Positions 22,565 through 30,476 of a stretch of DNA of 64,000 bases are shown in pieces. The stretch lies in the NCBI RefSeq assembly GCF_009739905.1, contig NZ_CP034279.1:6138001-6202000 (forward strand). The letters are read 5' to 3'. The notes under the pieces were generated by a model. It made no database searches. It saw only the letters and a program-made list of their open reading frames with translations, and had not been told where the DNA came from. Every line of letters begins with the position of its first letter. Positions within the stretch are counted from its first letter, which is position 1. A program made the translations under genes and the position numbers. The stretch is from Streptomyces ficellus. Lineage in GTDB: Bacteria > Actinomycetota > Actinomycetes > Streptomycetales > Streptomycetaceae.

Positions 22565-24052
<1,488 letters not shown>

Positions 24053-24142: not shown

Positions 24143-24167
24143 GAGTGCTCATGCTGGAGGCGGGTAC
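24143..24167 (+). promoter_or_regulatory. Possible SigB-type promoter of the sigma factor gene
   Basis: GAGT (24143-24146), 15 bases, then GGGTAC (24162-24167) fits the degenerate GNNT-N14-16-GGGTAC pattern described for Streptomyces SigB/SigH. It lies 40 bases before the preferred GTG start, compatible with autoregulation. The -35 is weakly specified. Confidence 0.4.
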
Positions 24168-24207
24168 ACGCGCTGTGCGAACGTACGTAGACGAGAGGGA
24201 GGGTGCA

Positions 24208-25059
24208 GTGTCCATGGCGACCACGATCTCGACCGGTACCACCCCGCAGACGACTGATCTGCCGGAGATCCGGAACCCCGGCGAGGTGGCTCCGAAGGAC
24301 GCGAAGGAACTGTCGAAGCAGTTCTTCGACCGGCTGGCTGTTCTCGAGGAAGGGACGGCGGAGTACCAGTACGTCCGCAACACCCTCATCGAACTGAACC
24401 TCTCCCTGGTGAAGTACGCGGCGACACGCTTCCGGAACCGGTCCGACCAGATGGAAGACATCATCCAGGTCGGCACCATCGGACTGATCAAGGCGATCGA
24501 CCGCTTCGACCTGAGCCGCGAGGTCGAGTTCACGACCTTCGCCATGCCGTGTGTGATCGGCGAGATCAAGCGGTTCTTCCGCGACACCAGCTGGTCGGTG
24601 CACGTGCCGAGGCGGCTGCAGGAACTGCGCATCGACATCGCGCGGGCGACCGACGAACTCTTCCAGCGGTTCGACCGCTCCCCGACCCCGGCCGAACTGG
24701 CCGAGCACCTGGGGATGGAGGAGGAGGAGATCCTCGAAGGGCTCGTCGCGGCCAACGGCTACACCGCCGGGTCGATCGACCTGCCCCTGGACGACAGCGG
24801 GGACAACTCCTCCGAGACCCTCGGTGACCGGCTGGGCGAACCCGACCGCGAGCTGGAGATCGTCGAGAACGTCCAGGCACTCAAGCCGCTCATCGAGCAG
24901 TTCGACGAACGGGACCGCCGCATCCTCAAGATGCGGTACGTGGACGAGATGACCCAGTCCGAGATCGGCGCCGAACTCGGGGTCTCCCAGATGCACGTGT
25001 CCCGGCTGCTGTCGAGGATCACCGCGCGGCTCCGCGAAGGGCTACTGGCCGTCGAGTGA
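24208..25059 (+). CDS. SigB/SigF-subfamily RNA polymerase sigma factor
   Basis: About 283 residues. Sigma-70 group 3 stress/sporulation class. Region 2 is seen in RNTLIELNLSLVKYAATRF and DIIQVGTIGLIKAIDRFD with FTTFAMPCVIGEIKRFFRD, region 3 in ATDELFQRFDRSPTPAELAE, region 4 in RRILKMRYVDEMTQSEIGAE and VSQMHVSRLLSRI. Start choice is uncertain. GTG 24208 follows GGGAGGG (24197-24203); ATG 24214 and ATG 24151 are in frame, but 24151 would lie before the possible promoter. It converges on an RsbW-like kinase and a stressosome operon, so its activity is most likely controlled by partner switching. Which Streptomyces paralogue it matches cannot be said. Confidence 0.9.
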   Translation: MSMATTISTGTTPQTTDLPEIRNPGEVAPKDAKELSKQFFDRLAVLEEGTAEYQYVRNTLIELNLSLVKYAATRFRNRSDQMEDIIQVGTIGLIKAIDRFDLSREVEFTTFAMPCVIGEIKRFFRDTSWSVHVPRRLQELRIDIARATDELFQRFDRSPTPAELAEHLGMEEEEILEGLVAANGYTAGSIDLPLDDSGDNSSETLGDRLGEPDRELEIVENVQALKPLIEQFDERDRRILKMRYVDEMTQSEIGAELGVSQMHVSRLLSRITARLREGLLAVE

Positions 25060-25068
25060 CGTACCGGT

Positions 25069-25216
25069 GACGGACCGGCCGGCGGCCGGTCCGTCGACGG
25101 CTTCCCGACGATGCCCGGGGCGATGCGCCCCGGGCATCGTGCTGCTCGTGACCTGGTGACCGGTGCCGGGTTTCCGGCCGCCCCACGCGGAACGGCCCCG
25201 CCGGGGCGGGGCCGTT
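25069..25216. terminator. Three consecutive hairpins between converging sigma and anti-sigma genes
   Basis: Hairpin A: 12-bp stem 25069-25080/25084-25095. Hairpin B: perfect 14-bp stem 25109-25122/25126-25139 with ATG loop. Hairpin C: 11-12-bp stem around 25191-25216 with CCGG loop. All are symmetrical enough to stop transcription from either side and would insulate the two regulons. Confidence 0.8.
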
Positions 25217-25247
25217 CGGGAGCGGGGCGCTGCGGTGCGCGGCGGTG

Positions 25248-25619
25248 TCAGGCGGCTTCGGCCTGGCGGTACCAGATGGCCCGGATCGTCTTGCCCACCC
25301 GGGTCGGCAGGATCTCCACCCGGCTCGCGAGGCTCTGCACCATGTGCCAGCCGAAGCCGCCGCCGCCGGAGAAGTCCGGCTTGCGCGGCGCGGGCGCGGC
25401 CGGCTCGGAGTCGTCCAGCTCCACCGCCAGCTCGCCCGGCTCGGCGCACAGCCGCAGCCGCCACCAGCCCTCGGTGTGGCGCAGCGCGTTGGCCGTCAGC
25501 TCGGTGACGACCAGCTGCACCGCGTCCAGGTCCGCCCACGGGCAGTGCTCGGCCACGAAACGGGCGGCCGTGTCACGGGCCGAGGCGCAGTCGGCGTACG
25601 GCGAAATCATGACAACCAC
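25248..25619 (-). CDS. RsbW-like ATP-binding anti-sigma factor (HATPase)
   Basis: 123-residue GHKL-fold serine kinase/anti-sigma protein of the RsbW/SpoIIAB type. The N-box ELTANALRH lies near residue 40; the G2-like box GGGGFGWHMVQSLA lies near residue 88. Such proteins sequester a SigB-type sigma factor and phosphorylate an anti-anti-sigma protein. GTG 25619 has AAGGAG (25626-25631) in front. It follows the SpoIIE-type gene by 69 bases, with its own SigB-type promoter in that gap, and converges on the sigma gene, its probable target. The pairing is inferred from position. Confidence 0.85.
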   Translation of the reverse strand: MVVMISPYADCASARDTAARFVAEHCPWADLDAVQLVVTELTANALRHTEGWWRLRLCAEPGELAVELDDSEPAAPAPRKPDFSGGGGFGWHMVQSLASRVEILPTRVGKTIRAIWYRQAEAA

Positions 25620-25648
25620 GAGCGGCTCCTTCGTTCCTCACCGCTCGC

Positions 25649-25672
25649 ATACCCCGACCTCGTGCGTTAACC
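25649..25672 (-). promoter_or_regulatory. SigB-type promoter of the anti-sigma gene
   Basis: On the minus strand GGTT (25672-25669), 14 bases, then GGGTAT (25654-25649) matches GNNT-N14-16-GGGTAC except for the last base. The -10 is 30 bases ahead of the GTG start of the RsbW-like gene and lies entirely between the two genes. Confidence 0.55.
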
Positions 25673-25688
25673 ACCGGACTGGCGAGGA

Positions 25689-26981
25689 TCAGCCCGGCAC
25701 CCGCCGCACGGTCAGGGCGACCGTGTCGTCCGGGTGCAGGATCACCGTGTGCATCTCGTCCGCGATCGCCGCCGGGATGTCCTCTATCGGACGGTGCCGG
25801 TGGCGGCGCGCCGCCCGCTCCAGCCGCTGCTCGCCCTCCCGCGGGTCGCGGCGGCTCTCGGTCAGCCCGTCCGTGTAGAGGACCAGCAGGTCGCCGGGGT
25901 CGAGGCGGTCGCGCAGCAGCCGCTCGCTGCCGGGCAGCGGGAAGCCGATGCCCCGGCCGCGCACCTCCAGCAGGGACGACTCCCCGCCCTTCCGGACCAG
26001 GAGCGCCGGCGGATGGCTGCCGTTCGCCAGCACCAGCTCCCCGCTCCCCGGGTCGAGGCGGGCGAGCTGCACCGTGGCCATCAGCTCGTGGTCGAAGGTC
26101 GCGAGGACCTCGTCGGTCCTCTGGACGATCGACTCCAGCGGGTGCCCCTCCAGCGCGAGGGTGCGCACGGCGTGGGTGACGTTGAGCGCGCTGCGCGTAC
26201 TGGTCAGGCCGTGTCCGAGGGCGTCCACCACCGTGATGTGCACGGTGCCGTCCGGGAGGACGAACCAGTCGTACAGGTCCCCGCCCGTGGGGGCGTGCTT
26301 CTCGGCCGGCTCGTAGTGGACGGCCATCTCCAGGCCCGGGACCCGCACCGGCGGCGGGCGCAGGGCGTCCTCCAGCTGGCGCAGTATCCGGCCGTGCGCC
26401 TGGCGCAGCTGCTCGTCGCGCTCCTCCAGCTGTACGTAAAGCGCCAGCACCCCGCTGTTGGTCTCGGCCAGCTCGTGCTTGAGCCGCTGGTGGTCCTCGG
26501 CCAGGGCGTCGGCCCGGTCGACCGCCACGCTCAGCTCCTCCTCCAGCAGCTCGCCCAGGCCGGGAGGATCGTCCCGGCACGCGTCCGTGCCGGACAGGAG
26601 GGGAGTGGGGACCCGCCACACGGCCGTCGTGCCGGGGAGCCGCTCCGCGGGCAGCGGAAGCCCCTCCAGCGACGGCCGGCGCGGCGCGTGCGGCAGGTGC
26701 AGCCGGACGATCAGCCGTCCTTCGGCCGGCCCGTCCGCAAGCTCGTCCGCCCGCCCGTCCGGTACGCCGTCCGCCTCGCCGCCCGGCTGGTGCGGCGCCT
26801 GGGGCGGCACCGTCTCCAGCAGTACGGGCCGGCCCGCCGTGAGCTCACCCCGGGCGACCCGCGTCGCCGACAGCGCCAGCCGGTAGCGCAGTTCCACGGG
26901 GAGGCCGGCCCGGTGGGCGACCCGGCGCAGCGCGCTGCGCAGCCCGGCGAGCGAGTGGAGGGTGGTGATCTGCGGTTTCAT
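25689..26981 (-). CDS. SpoIIE/RsbU-like PP2C phosphatase
   Basis: 430 residues. The C-terminal ~235 residues are a SpoIIE-type PP2C domain: metal site PTGGDLYDWF near residue 210, VVDALGHGLTS, ANGSHPPALL and LYTDGL with a late DDTVAL. Residues ~135-190 form a coiled coil (ALAEDHQRLKHELAETNSGV). The first ~110 residues (RYRLALSATRVARGEL) resemble a worn GHKL ATPase N-box rather than the RsbT-binding domain of Bacillus RsbU. Start ATG 26981 overlaps the previous stop by 4 bases. It probably dephosphorylates an anti-anti-sigma protein; none of the simple RsbV type is encoded nearby. Confidence 0.88.
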   Translation of the reverse strand: MKPQITTLHSLAGLRSALRRVAHRAGLPVELRYRLALSATRVARGELTAGRPVLLETVPPQAPHQPGGEADGVPDGRADELADGPAEGRLIVRLHLPHAPRRPSLEGLPLPAERLPGTTAVWRVPTPLLSGTDACRDDPPGLGELLEEELSVAVDRADALAEDHQRLKHELAETNSGVLALYVQLEERDEQLRQAHGRILRQLEDALRPPPVRVPGLEMAVHYEPAEKHAPTGGDLYDWFVLPDGTVHITVVDALGHGLTSTRSALNVTHAVRTLALEGHPLESIVQRTDEVLATFDHELMATVQLARLDPGSGELVLANGSHPPALLVRKGGESSLLEVRGRGIGFPLPGSERLLRDRLDPGDLLVLYTDGLTESRRDPREGEQRLERAARRHRHRPIEDIPAAIADEMHTVILHPDDTVALTVRRVPG

Positions 26982-27991
26982 GACTCTCTCCGCGCCGGGC
27001 CGACGGTGAGGACGGTGGCGTCGTCCCGGCTGCGCCGGTGTCGGTGGACCAGGGCTCCGGCCAGCAGCGGCGCCGGCAGCCCGGTCAGGAAGGGGGTGAG
27101 GGTGTGCGTCCAGCGGGCGTCGACACCGTCACTGTGCAGCAGCGCGATGGTGTCCGGCTCCGCCGGGGCCCGCTGCACCCGGGGGGCGGGCATGTTCCAG
27201 CCGACGACACCGGGCTGGCCGCCGAAGCGCAGCCGGACGCCGTCGTGGCCCAGCAGCAGGGTGCGTACGTTCCCCACCGAAGCCTGTTCGACGCCGTCGT
27301 CCGACAGCCGCAGCATGCTCACCGCCGCGCCCCGGCTGCGTCGCAGCGCGCGGTCCATCGCCCCCAGCAGCCGCGGCAGGGGCTGGCCGGGGTCGCGGTG
27401 GAAGACGCGCACGGCCAGTTCGGCGGCCTCGGCGGCGGGCGGGCCGTGCCCGAGCCCGTCCACGACGAGGGCCGTGCGTACGCCGCCGGTGACCGCGAGG
27501 CCCCAGGCGTCCCCGCAGGAGCGCTCCCCGTCGGCCGGCAGGCGCACCGCGCCGACGGAGGGCGCGCCATCGGCGGGGCCGTCGCCCGGTACACCCAGGC
27601 GGGCGGAGACGACGGTGCCCGCGCCCCTCGCCGTACGCACGGTGAACTCGTCGGCGATCCGGCGTACGGCGCCGAGCCCGGAGCCGAGCGTGCGGCTGGT
27701 GGTGTACCCGTCGGTCAGGCACTGGTCCAGGTCGGCCATGCCCGGGCCGCGGTCGACGGCCAGGATCTCCACGCCGGTGCGCAGCGGCAGCGGCTGGATG
27801 TACAGCGAGCCGTTCTGGGCGTGCTTGGCGATGTTGCCGGCCAGTTCGCTGGCGAGCACGGCCGCCTGGTCGGGCAGCGCGCCCGTGAGCCCCTGGTCCA
27901 GCGCCGCCCGGTGGGCGGTGGTCGCCGCGAGCTGGACGGCGCTGTAGTGGTCCACCGGGACGTGGGTGGTGGGGGAGGCCGGTGAGTCCAT
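26978..27991 (-). CDS. RsbT-RsbX fusion: ATPase domain plus PP2C-type phosphatase
   Basis: 337 residues in two parts. Residues ~1-125 are an RsbT-like GHKL serine kinase domain (N-box ASELAGNIAKHAQ, ATP site DRGPGMADLDQCL, LGSGLGAVRRI). Residues ~150-335 are an RsbX-like phosphatase (LVVDGLGHGPPAAEAAELA, LLHSDGVDARW, RDDATVL). In Bacillus these are separate proteins: RsbT phosphorylates RsbR/RsbS, RsbX reverses it. The start codon shares one base with the rsbT stop (TGATG), and the stop overlaps the next gene by 4 bases. Confidence 0.88.
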   Translation of the reverse strand: MDSPASPTTHVPVDHYSAVQLAATTAHRAALDQGLTGALPDQAAVLASELAGNIAKHAQNGSLYIQPLPLRTGVEILAVDRGPGMADLDQCLTDGYTTSRTLGSGLGAVRRIADEFTVRTARGAGTVVSARLGVPGDGPADGAPSVGAVRLPADGERSCGDAWGLAVTGGVRTALVVDGLGHGPPAAEAAELAVRVFHRDPGQPLPRLLGAMDRALRRSRGAAVSMLRLSDDGVEQASVGNVRTLLLGHDGVRLRFGGQPGVVGWNMPAPRVQRAPAEPDTIALLHSDGVDARWTHTLTPFLTGLPAPLLAGALVHRHRRSRDDATVLTVGPARRES

Positions 27992-28551
27992 CAGCGGTCG
28001 TTCCAGCGGCTGACGATCACGGTGGTGCCCTCGCCGGGTCTGGTGCGCACCTCGAACTCGTGCATCAGGCGGCGTGCTCCGCCCAGCCCGTGGCCGAGCC
28101 CGGAGCCCGTGGTGAACCCGTCGCCGAGGGCCTCCTCCACGTCGGGGATGCCGGGGCCGTCGTCCCGGACCGTCAGGCGCAGACCCTTGCGTCCGGACCG
28201 GGTCAGCGGCTGGATCTCCAGGGAGCCGCCGCCCCCGTGCACGTACGCGTTGCGGGCCAGCTCGCTGGCGGCGGTGACGATCCTCGTCTGGTCGACGAGC
28301 CCGAATCCGGCCTCGACGGTGGCCGCCCGCACGGCGTGACGTACCGTCAGCAGGTCCTCCTCGGAGGCGACGTTGTAACGGGACCCGGCGCCGCGTTCCC
28401 CGCCGGGCGCCCCGGGTTCCCAGGGTTCCCCCGGTGGACCGGAGGACCGGTCGTCGGAGGAACCGGAGGACCGGCCCTCGGAGGCCGTGGGGGAGCGCTG
28501 GGCGATCACCTCGGACCCGGGCGTCACCACCCGTTCACCGCGGAGTGTCAC
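27991..28551 (-). CDS. rsbT: RsbT serine/threonine kinase
   Basis: 186 residues. An N-terminal disordered Ser/Gly/Pro-rich stretch of about 55 residues precedes a GHKL kinase domain with N-box TAASELARNAYVHG, G1 RDDGPGIPDVEEAL and G2 GSGLGHGLGGARRLM. RsbT phosphorylates stressosome RsbR/RsbS and then leaves to activate an RsbU-type phosphatase. GTG 28551 overlaps the rsbS stop by 4 bases. The long N-terminal extension is unusual and a later start cannot be excluded. Confidence 0.9.
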   Translation of the reverse strand: MTLRGERVVTPGSEVIAQRSPTASEGRSSGSSDDRSSGPPGEPWEPGAPGGERGAGSRYNVASEEDLLTVRHAVRAATVEAGFGLVDQTRIVTAASELARNAYVHGGGGSLEIQPLTRSGRKGLRLTVRDDGPGIPDVEEALGDGFTTGSGLGHGLGGARRLMHEFEVRTRPGEGTTVIVSRWNDR

Positions 28552-28946
28552 GTCGTGCCTCCCCCGGAGGGCTGGGCCATGCGGTGCCAGCCGAGCGCGG
28601 TCAGGCCCTGCTCGGCGTTGAGGGCGGTCTCCACGCCGGTCAGCTGGAGCCCCAGCTCGACCAGGGTGATGGCGACCGCGGGCCGCATCCCGGCCACGAT
28701 CACCCGGGCGCCGAGGAGCCGCGCCATGGTGGTCAGTTCCATCAGCGTGCGCGCCACGAAGGAGTCGATGATCTCCAGCCGGGAGATGTCGATCAGGACG
28801 CCACGGGCGCCGTCGCCGACGATCCGCTCGGTCAGCTCGTCGGTGAAGGCCACCGCCGACTGGTCGTCCAGCTCGTTGAGCAGACCGGTGATGAGCACGT
28901 CGCCGAGCCGCAGGATCGGTACGCCAGTGGCTCGGGAGGCCGTCAC
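28548..28946 (-). CDS. rsbS: RsbS stressosome STAS scaffold
   Basis: 132-residue single STAS domain. It closely resembles Bacillus RsbS along its length: ILRLGDVLITGLLNELDDQS, IDISRLEIIDSFVARTL and VIVAGMRPAVAITLVELG. The serine in IIDSF (Ser62) corresponds to phosphorylated Ser59 of Bacillus RsbS. GTG 28946 overlaps the rsbR stop by 4 bases. Confidence 0.93.
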   Translation of the reverse strand: MTASRATGVPILRLGDVLITGLLNELDDQSAVAFTDELTERIVGDGARGVLIDISRLEIIDSFVARTLMELTTMARLLGARVIVAGMRPAVAITLVELGLQLTGVETALNAEQGLTALGWHRMAQPSGGGTT

Positions 28947-29830
28947 GCGGTCACCGGCCGGGCTGTTCCGGCGTCCTGGCCGACGCCGGGCTGGTCGGTC
29001 AGCCTGATGGCGGCGGCGAGGGCGTCCGCCAGGGTCGCGCGGGTCAGGATGGTCGACAGGTCGATGCCGAGCTGCGCGATGGTCTGGGCGATGGGCGGCC
29101 GGATACCGCTGATCACACAGTCGGCGCCCATCAGCCGCACCGCGTTGACGGTGTGCATCAGGTGCTGGGCGACCGCCGTGTCGACGGCCGGGACACCCGT
29201 GATGTCGATGATGGCGACCTGCGCCTCGTTGTCCTGGATCGCCTGGAGCAGGCTCTCCATCACCACCTGCGTCCGGGCGGTGTCCAGCGTGCCGATCAGG
29301 GGGACGGCGAGGACGTGCCGCCACAGCCGCACCACGGGGGTGGAGACCTCCAGGAGCTGGCGGCTCTGGCGCTGGATGATCTCCTCGCGCCCCTCCACGT
29401 ACGTCTCGAAGGAGAGCACCCCGGCGGCGTCCAGCAGCCGGTTGACCAGGATGGCCGCGGAGTACAGCTCGGCCGAGTCCCGTGCGGTGTGCTGGACGGC
29501 GGACAGCAGCGCCTCCTTGAGCGAGAGCACGGCCATCGACGTGGCGGTCGGCGTGGCGCCCGCCCGCGCACGGCGCAACGACAGCTCTATCACCGTCTGG
29601 CGCAGCTCGTTGCGGGACGTCACCAGGCGTTCCACCGGTACGTCGCCGGCCAGACCCGCGGCCAGGGCCGAGATCAGCAGATCGGCCTCCTCGCGGATCT
29701 CGTGCTCACTCATGTCGGTGCTGACCGCCTGCTCCAGCTGGAGCCGGACCCACTGGTCCGCGATCTCCTCCTCACGCTCCCGCAGGGCCTCACAGAGGCG
29801 GTCCCGCACGATCGATTCGCTGGTGTTCAC
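28943..29830 (-). CDS. rsbR: RsbR stressosome co-antagonist
   Basis: About 295 residues. An N-terminal four-helix, globin-like sensor region (about residues 10-145) without an obvious haem ligand is followed by a linker and a STAS domain. The STAS domain shows QLLEVSTPVVRLWRHVL, LIGTLDTARTQ and IIDITGVPAVDTAVAQHLM. The threonine in AVDTAV (Thr218 from this start) and the LIGTLDT threonines align with phosphosites of Bacillus RsbR. GTG 29830 follows GAGAGG and is preferred; ATG 29845 is in frame. It is the first gene of the stressosome operon; the 208 bases upstream (to 30038) show no clear promoter. Confidence 0.92.
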   Translation of the reverse strand: MNTSESIVRDRLCEALREREEEIADQWVRLQLEQAVSTDMSEHEIREEADLLISALAAGLAGDVPVERLVTSRNELRQTVIELSLRRARAGATPTATSMAVLSLKEALLSAVQHTARDSAELYSAAILVNRLLDAAGVLSFETYVEGREEIIQRQSRQLLEVSTPVVRLWRHVLAVPLIGTLDTARTQVVMESLLQAIQDNEAQVAIIDITGVPAVDTAVAQHLMHTVNAVRLMGADCVISGIRPPIAQTIAQLGIDLSTILTRATLADALAAAIRLTDQPGVGQDAGTARPVTA

Positions 29831-30038
29831 AAGTACCTCTCGCATTCGGGGACAGGACGGGCGGACCTCCGCGACCCGGCGCGGAAGTCGCCGCCGGTGC
29901 GGCCGCCCGGCCGGTCCCTCATGTTCGACGGCGGTCGGGCCGTCCCGGCCGCTGGGGCGGGGAGCGGCCGGGGTCCGCCGTGCGGACGCCGAAGGCGGCG
30001 ACCGGAGCAGAGTGCCGGCCGCCGCCCTCCACGTCCGC

Positions 30039-30350
30039 TCAAACCGTGGCCGTGGCCGATGCCTTGGTGGGGGTGGCGGCCGGAGCCGCGCTGGTGGCGG
30101 GGGCCGCCGCCGGAGCCGTGGCCGCCTTCACCTTCGCCGTCACGGACGCCGGCTCGCCGGCCGCCGAGATCGCCTGCCGGGCGACGCGCAGGGCGTCGCG
30201 CACGTCACGCGTACCGGTGGACACGCACAGGGTGTAGGCGGTGTCCTCCCGTTGACGCACGACCTTCGCGTCCGCCTCCGCACCGGAAGCGGTCAGCTCC
30301 TCATACCTGGCGACGAGTGTGCGCAGCATTGAGGGGTGCGCCATCAGCAC
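30039..30350 (-). CDS. Small DUF5133-type protein
   Basis: 103 residues. The N-terminal half (MLMAHPSMLRTLVARYEEL) and the segment TAYTLCVSTGTRDVRDALRV match what I recall as DUF5133, a family of unknown function frequent in Streptomyces. The last 45 residues are alanine/threonine low-complexity sequence. The GTG at 30350 is supported by a perfect AAGGAGGT site 7 bases upstream. It lies beside the stressosome operon on the same strand, but a gap of 208 bases separates them. Confidence 0.75.
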   Translation of the reverse strand: MLMAHPSMLRTLVARYEELTASGAEADAKVVRQREDTAYTLCVSTGTRDVRDALRVARQAISAAGEPASVTAKVKAATAPAAAPATSAAPAATPTKASATATV

Positions 30351-30476
30351 GACAGAACCTCCTTCTGAACGGGACCCGTTGCCCGGGTGTCGGGTGCCGG
30401 ATCGCGATGTCACCGACCGAGGGCGCCCCTACCCCGCCTCCGCCGGGTCATTCCCCCGCCCTGCCCCTCCGGGCTC

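Follow-up and report, generated by a model that had tools for sequence, protein, structure and literature searches.

The eight-gene sigB operon seems to be restricted to Bacillales (PMC9237108, in part), and many slow-growing mycobacteria carry rsbV, rsbR, rsbS, rsbT and rsbX together with a fused rsbUW (PMC8115616, in part), so that actinobacterial versions of the stressosome are not new as such. In Bacillus subtilis, RsbU bears its RsbT-binding domain on an arm and RsbT activates the phosphatase through a helix (PMC12143880, in part). In a survey of globin-type RSTX modules, most downstream output proteins were without a detectable RsbU_N domain and the route from RsbT to them was left open, as stated in the part of that survey drawn on here (PMC9237108). 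In Streptomyces coelicolor, the RsbR/S-like SCO7324 is encoded by the first of five genes, SCO7325 is an RsbV acting on SigB (PMC7244524, PMC8346170, both in part) and BldG is phosphorylated by several RsbW homologues (PMC8346170, in part). The wiring in Streptomyces is hard to untangle because several SigB homologues are present, with eight SigB/SigF/SigG (SigBFG) sigma factors over the TIGR02980 cut-off in the genome considered here. This is the genome of Streptomyces ficellus (GCF_009739905.1), in which a stretch of 64,000 nucleotides (NZ_CP034279.1, positions 6,138,001 to 6,202,000; hereafter the window) carries, beside guaB1, genes for one of those eight sigma factors, an RsbW-like protein (W), a SpoIIE/RsbU-type phosphatase (U), an RsbT-RsbX fusion (TX) and the stressosome proteins RsbR, RsbS and RsbT (R, S and T).

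The locus is a real, conserved, composite system and, judged from gene order, an R-S-T-TX-U cassette docked to a sigma/anti-sigma pair. Our preferred reading, given a probability of roughly 0.6, is that the cassette signals through U, an RsbV-type protein and W to the adjacent sigma factor, the sigma-W pair being the more widely spread part; we infer the wiring from RsbT to sigma from comparative sequence analysis. In unstressed cells, RsbR and RsbS would hold RsbT, which upon stress would phosphorylate both and then leave. Free RsbT would engage U at its pseudo-GHKL domain and long helix, which would order the helix and turn on the phosphatase. U would then dephosphorylate an RsbV-type protein, whose gene would lie between those of U and W in sister clades and elsewhere in the genome (BldG-, RsbB- or ArsI-like) in the clade of S. 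ficellus. The dephosphorylated protein would draw W off sigma, and the freed sigma factor would raise expression of its own gene, of W and of the stressosome operon. The X domain of TX would reset the complex, and the kinase half might compete with RsbT. If true, one stressosome would be tied to one sigma factor in Streptomyces. A literature search, with most subscription journals outside its scope, found no description of a guaB1-linked locus of this kind or of a pseudo-GHKL phosphatase.

Gene content and conservation of the locus

All of the genes named in an initial annotation of the window are present, with R, S, T, TX, U and W on the minus strand and the SigBFG sigma gene on the plus strand (Table 1). 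The R/S, S/T, T/TX and TX/U pairs overlap by 4, 4, 1 and 4 bases, respectively, a gap of 69 bases lies between U and W, and sigma, which lies behind guaB1, reads towards W. This arrangement is not due to chance, since other Streptomyces repeat the same order.

RsbR combines an N-terminal sensor domain with a STAS domain carrying two threonine acceptor sites, as expected of a stressosome protein; of its acceptor motifs, VDT is found in all 13 aligned rows and LDT in 12, the Salinimonas sequence having LDS instead. Its PDB matches include 7o0i, a stressosome chain (6.2e-35), and chains that bear the name RsbR (4e-30). RsbS is a lone STAS domain with a serine site, the DS motif being kept in 15/15 rows. 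RsbT is a GHKL kinase in which N-box residues E97 and N101 are present in all 21 rows and which matches the anti-sigma kinase SpoIIAB at 1.4e-8. In TX, the N-box of the kinase half has its Glu in 22/23 and its Asn in 21/23 rows, and the PP2C Asp residues are present in 23/23; as a profile, the X half matches 3zt9 at 3e-30, which we take to be a Moorella structure, and RsbX (3w40) at 2.9e-21, identifying it as an RsbX-type PP2C. The sigma factor scores 295.7 bits against the TIGR02980 cut-off of 234.35 and thus belongs to the SigB/SigF/SigG family, and W has an N-box and a PF13581 match. Motif counts for RsbR, RsbS and W are based on 13, 15 and 18 chosen rows; from the loci fetched (L-numbers), L035, with a broken frame, was excluded throughout, L019, L021 and L037 were excluded from the T alignment, and L037 from that of TX. 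The same RsbT-RsbX fusion, at 28% identity, is found in an R-S-T-TX set of Salinimonas (L040), presumably a gammaproteobacterium, and the fusion is therefore old or widely exchanged.

Two gene starts could be refined. A sigma gene had been correctly recognised but placed from near 24143, where the conserved promoter motif lies (24145-24166), and it more likely starts at GTG 24208 or ATG 24214. For RsbR, the upstream ATG is found in the window and L038 but is missing from the other seven aligned relatives, whereas GTG 29830 and the preceding GAGAGG are conserved, and the former is probably the start. A DUF5133 gene stands beside rsbR in L018-L022 and L038, and such genes recur near stressosomes or SigB-type sigma genes, including the class-2 loci L098, L100-L102, L104 and L106-L108.

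Table 1. Features of the guaB1-linked stressosome and sigma locus (window coordinates)
Feature	Position	Strand	Evidence
guaB1 (GMP reductase), locus anchor gene	22607..24052	+	TIGR01303 and NF052358 over cut-off
sigma, putative SigB-type promoter (GTG-N14-GGGTA)	24145..24166	+	motif count
sigma, SigB/SigF/SigG family (ATG alternative 24214)	24208..25059	+	TIGR02980, over cut-off
W, RsbW-like GHKL protein, candidate anti-sigma factor	25248..25619	-	PF13581 2.1e-12
W, putative SigB-type promoter (GGTTAA...GGGTAT) between U and W	25649..25672	-	
U, pseudo-GHKL domain, long helix and SpoIIE/RsbU-type PP2C phosphatase	25689..26981	-	PF07228, models
TX, rsbT-rsbX fusion: second GHKL kinase domain and RsbX-type PP2C	26978..27991	-	Pfam, profile matches
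rsbT, GHKL switch kinase, N-box intact	27991..28551	-	PF02518/PF13581
rsbS, single STAS domain, IIDSF acceptor site	28548..28946	-	PF01740
rsbR, RsbRD_N sensor domain and STAS (start probably GTG 29830)	28943..29845	-	PF14361 and PF01740
DUF5133 gene, perhaps first of the stressosome transcript (exact start unsure)	30039..30413	-	PF17196 4e-18
Stressosome operon, putative SigB-type promoter (ATG-N14-GGGTA) ahead of the DUF5133 gene	30430..30451	-	

In a sample of 392 Streptomyces genomes (sigma at E up to 1e-119, W at E up to 1e-30), sigma was found in 36, W in 32 and both in 19 (hypergeometric p 1.7e-14, kinship uncorrected), and in all 19 the two genes are adjacent, with gaps of 74-1165 bases. 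This constant adjacency speaks against W not being the anti-sigma factor of its neighbour, with another RsbW-like protein of the genome holding sigma instead. We regard that arrangement as very unlikely, even though 78 HATPase_c_2 matches (E up to 0.001) are present in the genome, S. coelicolor anti-sigma factors bind several sigmas (PMC8346170, in part) and sigma occurs without W in L092, L094, L119 and L124.

The pair is not confined to loci with a stressosome. Sigma and W lie at guaB1 with no stressosome there in L088-L091, L116, L120-L123 and L125-L127, and away from guaB1, again with none at the locus, in L093, L128 and L129; the sample genome G023, to which L090 belongs, has a TX homologue elsewhere. 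W is present with no sigma at the locus in L130, L131 and L132; in L133, W lies at a contig end together with a partial sigma that has no upstream region. In the window, a GDSL gene flanks the cassette; in L121, 44 bases lie between the end of the GDSL open frame and the W match, and in L088, L089, L116 and L123 a permease gene is the next matched gene beside W. Sigma-W is therefore the wider unit, and the stressosome acts as a cassette lying between the GDSL/permease side and W. A scan for TX gave 23 loci (L018-L040, which all contain TX by construction), 22 of them in Streptomyces; among these, 14 are at guaB1, 11 with sigma and three without (L032, L033 and L039, hereafter the three sigma-less loci), and eight are elsewhere.

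The phosphatase front end and the RsbV-type protein

A Pfam-A scan of U (E up to 0.05) gave SpoIIE (PF07228) as the sole match and none to RsbU_N, the four-helix RsbT-binding domain, and so RsbT cannot act on U in the textbook way. In a model of the full protein, a small N-domain (about residues 1-128) is followed by a helix (142-207) and a PP2C fold, giving the helical linker and phosphatase expected of an RsbU, with the PP2C aspartates conserved in 23/23 rows. A fold search with the whole of U was uninformative on the N-domain, as the rows shown were PP2C matches, and the domain was therefore folded alone (pLDDT 79.9). Residues 2-127 of U then aligned with RsbW in VIA-align at Z 11.8 and 2.4 A over 98 residues, and the first ten rows of the structural alignment were all anti-sigma kinases (Z 11.8 down to 10.2); among these ten were UsfX (11.7), the Rv1364c RsbU-RsbW structure (11.0) and SpoIIAB (10.8), and the anti-sigma kinases were followed by LvrC (8.1), SiaB (6.8), DesK (5.4) and a remainder at 5.0 or below. 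Foldseek E-values were weak, the best being 0.011. The catalytic N-box Glu and Asn are missing from the domain in 22/22 rows, at positions taken from a weak U-T profile alignment that is in register (E 0.0096, probability 4%) and was not used as evidence of homology. In these models the front end of U looks like a pseudo-GHKL domain, placed where B. subtilis RsbU bears its RsbT-binding domain, and a dead kinase-fold copy on U would be a concrete, testable answer for one output protein without RsbU_N. The class-2 modules (L095-L114, 20 fetched) were read for gene order only, and no frequencies are taken from them because some were chosen for a nearby sigma; their U matches, where found, start at about residue 150 or later, without the N-domain. 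At L130 (12491-14761), a reduced locus beside guaB1, only T, U and W are seen and no R, S, TX or sigma was matched there; T and U may therefore function together without this scaffold, unless its genes are elsewhere.

The initial annotation had noted that no simple RsbV is encoded here, and STAS matches in the window are indeed confined to RsbR and RsbS. RsbV was sought with a profile of eight STAS domains of this genome; the search covered 48 loci or regions, among them positions 15000-40000 of the window, and took in open frames of 70 codons or more. Five loci gave matches below 1e-20 in the interval from U to W, namely L023 (S. candidus), L025 (S. spiroverticillatus) and the three sigma-less loci; in all five of these sister loci, the stop codon of U and the start codon of V share the sequence ATGA. 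In L027, L029 and L030, matches below 1e-20 lie on the opposite strand, downstream of U, and weaker RsbV-like matches are found farther off in L024, L027 and L030. In the window and its clade the same profile matched R and S alone, and it had no matches in sigma-W loci without a stressosome. In the guaB1 tree, the window type and two partial loci form one clade (97/98) and the V-bearing loci another (89/89); from the search and the tree together, both sigma and R-S-T-TX-U-V-W are present in S. candidus and S. spiroverticillatus, and V is missing from the window's lineage. Both loss of RsbV in the window's lineage and its gain in the sister clade may be reconciled with the trees. The earlier suggestion that RsbV is encoded elsewhere or is not needed can thus be narrowed, in that its place is between U and W in five sister loci.

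Elsewhere in the genome, a single contig of 7.08 Mb in which 15 of the 17 STAS matches lie outside the window, RsbV-type genes were found at 3.305 Mb, at 0.380 Mb and, beside a sigma gene, at 4.431 Mb. By their neighbours and the S. coelicolor gene order, these are presumably BldG-like, part of an rsbB-rsbA-sigB-like locus and ArsI-like, respectively. A relocated orthologue was also considered: of the STAS loci read, the one at 6,603,614 matches the L023 RsbV most closely (47% over 99 aa); it lies beside a SpoIIE-type match and was taken to be a paralogue. A second stressosome lies near the left end of the genome at about 26.9-30.3 kb (L075 6960-10313), where R, T and TX are open. Its RsbS has lost the first ~68 residues, including the acceptor Ser, and its U both ends; it looks decayed on account of these truncations and was rejected as the working stressosome.

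A circuit that dispenses with RsbV is improbable in our estimate. In this case, RsbT would release or expose the pseudo-GHKL domain of U, which would bind W directly as a false partner and free sigma, and the phosphatase domain would be left to target R/S or something else. Such a circuit would accord with the missing RsbV match between U and W in the window's clade, with the W-type anti-sigma kinase fold modelled for the U N-domain without its N-box, and with W itself, in which the glycines of the G1 box, as we take that box to be defined, are absent in 18/18 rows; it would also have a parallel in the RsbW homologue RsbW3 of M. smegmatis, which antagonises by binding RsbW1 (PMC7693655, in part). 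However, the five RsbV-keeping loci share the pseudo-domain, which is thus not special to the RsbV-less clade, the conservation of the PP2C aspartates makes a phosphoprotein target of U likely, and several RsbV-type genes are present in the genome. A related proposal, in which signalling bypasses both RsbV and RsbU_N because the dead kinase-fold front of U mimics a kinase, docks with free RsbT or onto R/S and pairs with the anti-sigma factor, is regarded as equally doubtful.

A promoter motif and the proposed coupling of the cassette to sigma

An RTG-N14-GGGTA motif was first spotted in alignments of relatives, where it precedes sigma, W and the operon, and was then counted. It is present within 200 bp upstream of sigma in 19/19 loci, compared with 18/1800 random 200-bp pieces, and within 700 bp of the stressosome operon in 14/14 guaB1-linked modules, compared with 67/1800 random 700-bp pieces; among the unlinked modules it was found in one of eight, one of which had only 260 bp in view. 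RTG stands at exactly 14 bases for 42 of the 58 GGGTA sites. As the first count used the sequences from which the motif had been read, it was retested on later-fetched loci, excluding L115 and L134 (repeats of the L019 and L033 genomes), and was found at sigma in 13/14 (the miss being L118) and at the stressosome operon in 2/2, although these loci are partly near kin of earlier ones (L116 with L088) and so not fully independent. Upstream of W, GGGTA alone was found in 16/16 of the later loci; from the sequence, W shares the -10 element and its -35 varies. SigB-family promoters of S. coelicolor have GNNT or GTTT -35 boxes and GGGTA-like -10 boxes (PMC8346170, in part). A canonical GTTT-N13-16-GGGTA promoter had no match in the window, and the -35 element differs.

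Several observations weigh against the reading in which the cassette signals through U, an RsbV-type protein and W to the adjacent sigma. The motif was counted first in the same sequences that suggested it, and upstream of W its RTG-N14 form is found in only 9/20 loci within 150 bp (15/1800 random 150-bp pieces) and in 10/16 later ones. In the three sigma-less loci, where W follows rsbV closely, the GGGTAG preceding W is accounted for by the rsbV stop codon and is hence not a promoter, and one of these, L039, is among the nine W matches. The same three loci keep R-S-T-TX-U-V-W without a neighbouring sigma and retain the operon motif, which another SigB homologue may therefore use. With regard to an RsbV acting in trans, the motif is within 400 bp of 0/13 STAS genes elsewhere in the genome, a second RsbR and a transporter having been left out of the 15 matches outside the window; the genome search advised by the initial annotation did yield several RsbV-type genes, but none of those checked carries the shared promoter. 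W, in the absence of its G1-box glycines, may not be the kinase of an RsbV. Moreover, a stressosome is at the locus in only 5/19 genomes with both sigma and W (G006, G250, G386, G339 and G000, which is the window genome) and not in the other 14. The original description of a stressosome and partner-switching locus beside a SigB-type sigma therefore stands, but the idea of one self-contained module does not, given those 14 genomes and the sigma-less loci.

Such independence raises the question of whether the two parts are neighbours by history only, with the stressosome serving other sigmas through BldG or similar and W-sigma being a separate switch that shares the site. The sigma-W loci without a stressosome, at guaB1 and away from it, and the persistence of stressosome and W in the three sigma-less loci would fit this explanation, as would the distribution of TX in a sample of 150 Streptomyces genomes: homologues were found in 71, but beside guaB1 only in G000 and G006 (contig coordinates read by eye; fragmented assemblies may hide cases), with sigma beside guaB1 in at least nine. 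We nevertheless consider it unlikely, because the promoter motif is common to sigma and the linked modules and rare in the unlinked ones, W is kept beside U without sigma at the locus in the three sigma-less loci, L130 and L132, and U-V-W are contiguous, with U and V overlapping, in sister loci. The coupling of cassette to sigma remains the preferred reading, and the related strains, with or without stressosome, RsbV or sigma at one chromosomal site and with readable promoter motifs, provide a natural experiment.

Comparison with known systems

The mycobacterial SigF partner-switching system, including Rv1364c, is alike in its GHKL and PP2C modules and in the use of an RsbW homologue as antagonist (PMC7693655, in part). 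In Rv1364c the RsbW domain follows the phosphatase (PMC12143880, in part; 3ke6), whereas in U a degenerate GHKL domain precedes it. The S. coelicolor SCO7324-SCO7328 region and the SigB/RsbA/RsbV (SCO7325) and BldG networks are similar in having an RsbR/RsbS-like operon and RsbV-type control of SigB homologues, a likeness drawn from published descriptions (PMC7244524, PMC8346170, both in part). Loci of the S. coelicolor SigI-ArsI-PrsI type share a sigma factor with a nearby candidate anti-sigma factor; they differ in having an ArsI-type RsbV in cis, and at the locus of this kind in S. ficellus, at about 4.43 Mb, no stressosome match was found in the 9 kb read.

The minimal RSTX modules of Vibrio, Moorella and others are alike in R-S-T, an RsbX-type phosphatase and then an output gene. 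At the present locus, by contrast, RsbX forms one protein with a second RsbT-type domain, the product of the output gene is a PP2C phosphatase that begins with a pseudo-GHKL domain, and the next genes encode a sigma/anti-sigma pair. The rsbR-S-T-U-V-W-sigB-rsbX operon of B. subtilis has in common with this locus the sensor scaffold, switch kinase, phosphatase, a member of the anti-sigma kinase family, a SigB-family sigma factor and SigB-type promoter motifs. The window does not hold a complete Bacillus-type sigB operon, being without RsbV and having sigma on the other strand, and L023 and L025 have the full gene content of a sigB operon, although not as a single operon. Compared with B. subtilis, RsbX is fused to a second RsbT and sigma is a separate, convergent gene; the four-helix N-domain of RsbU is replaced in U by a pseudo-GHKL domain, and RsbV is absent from the window but present in the five sister loci.

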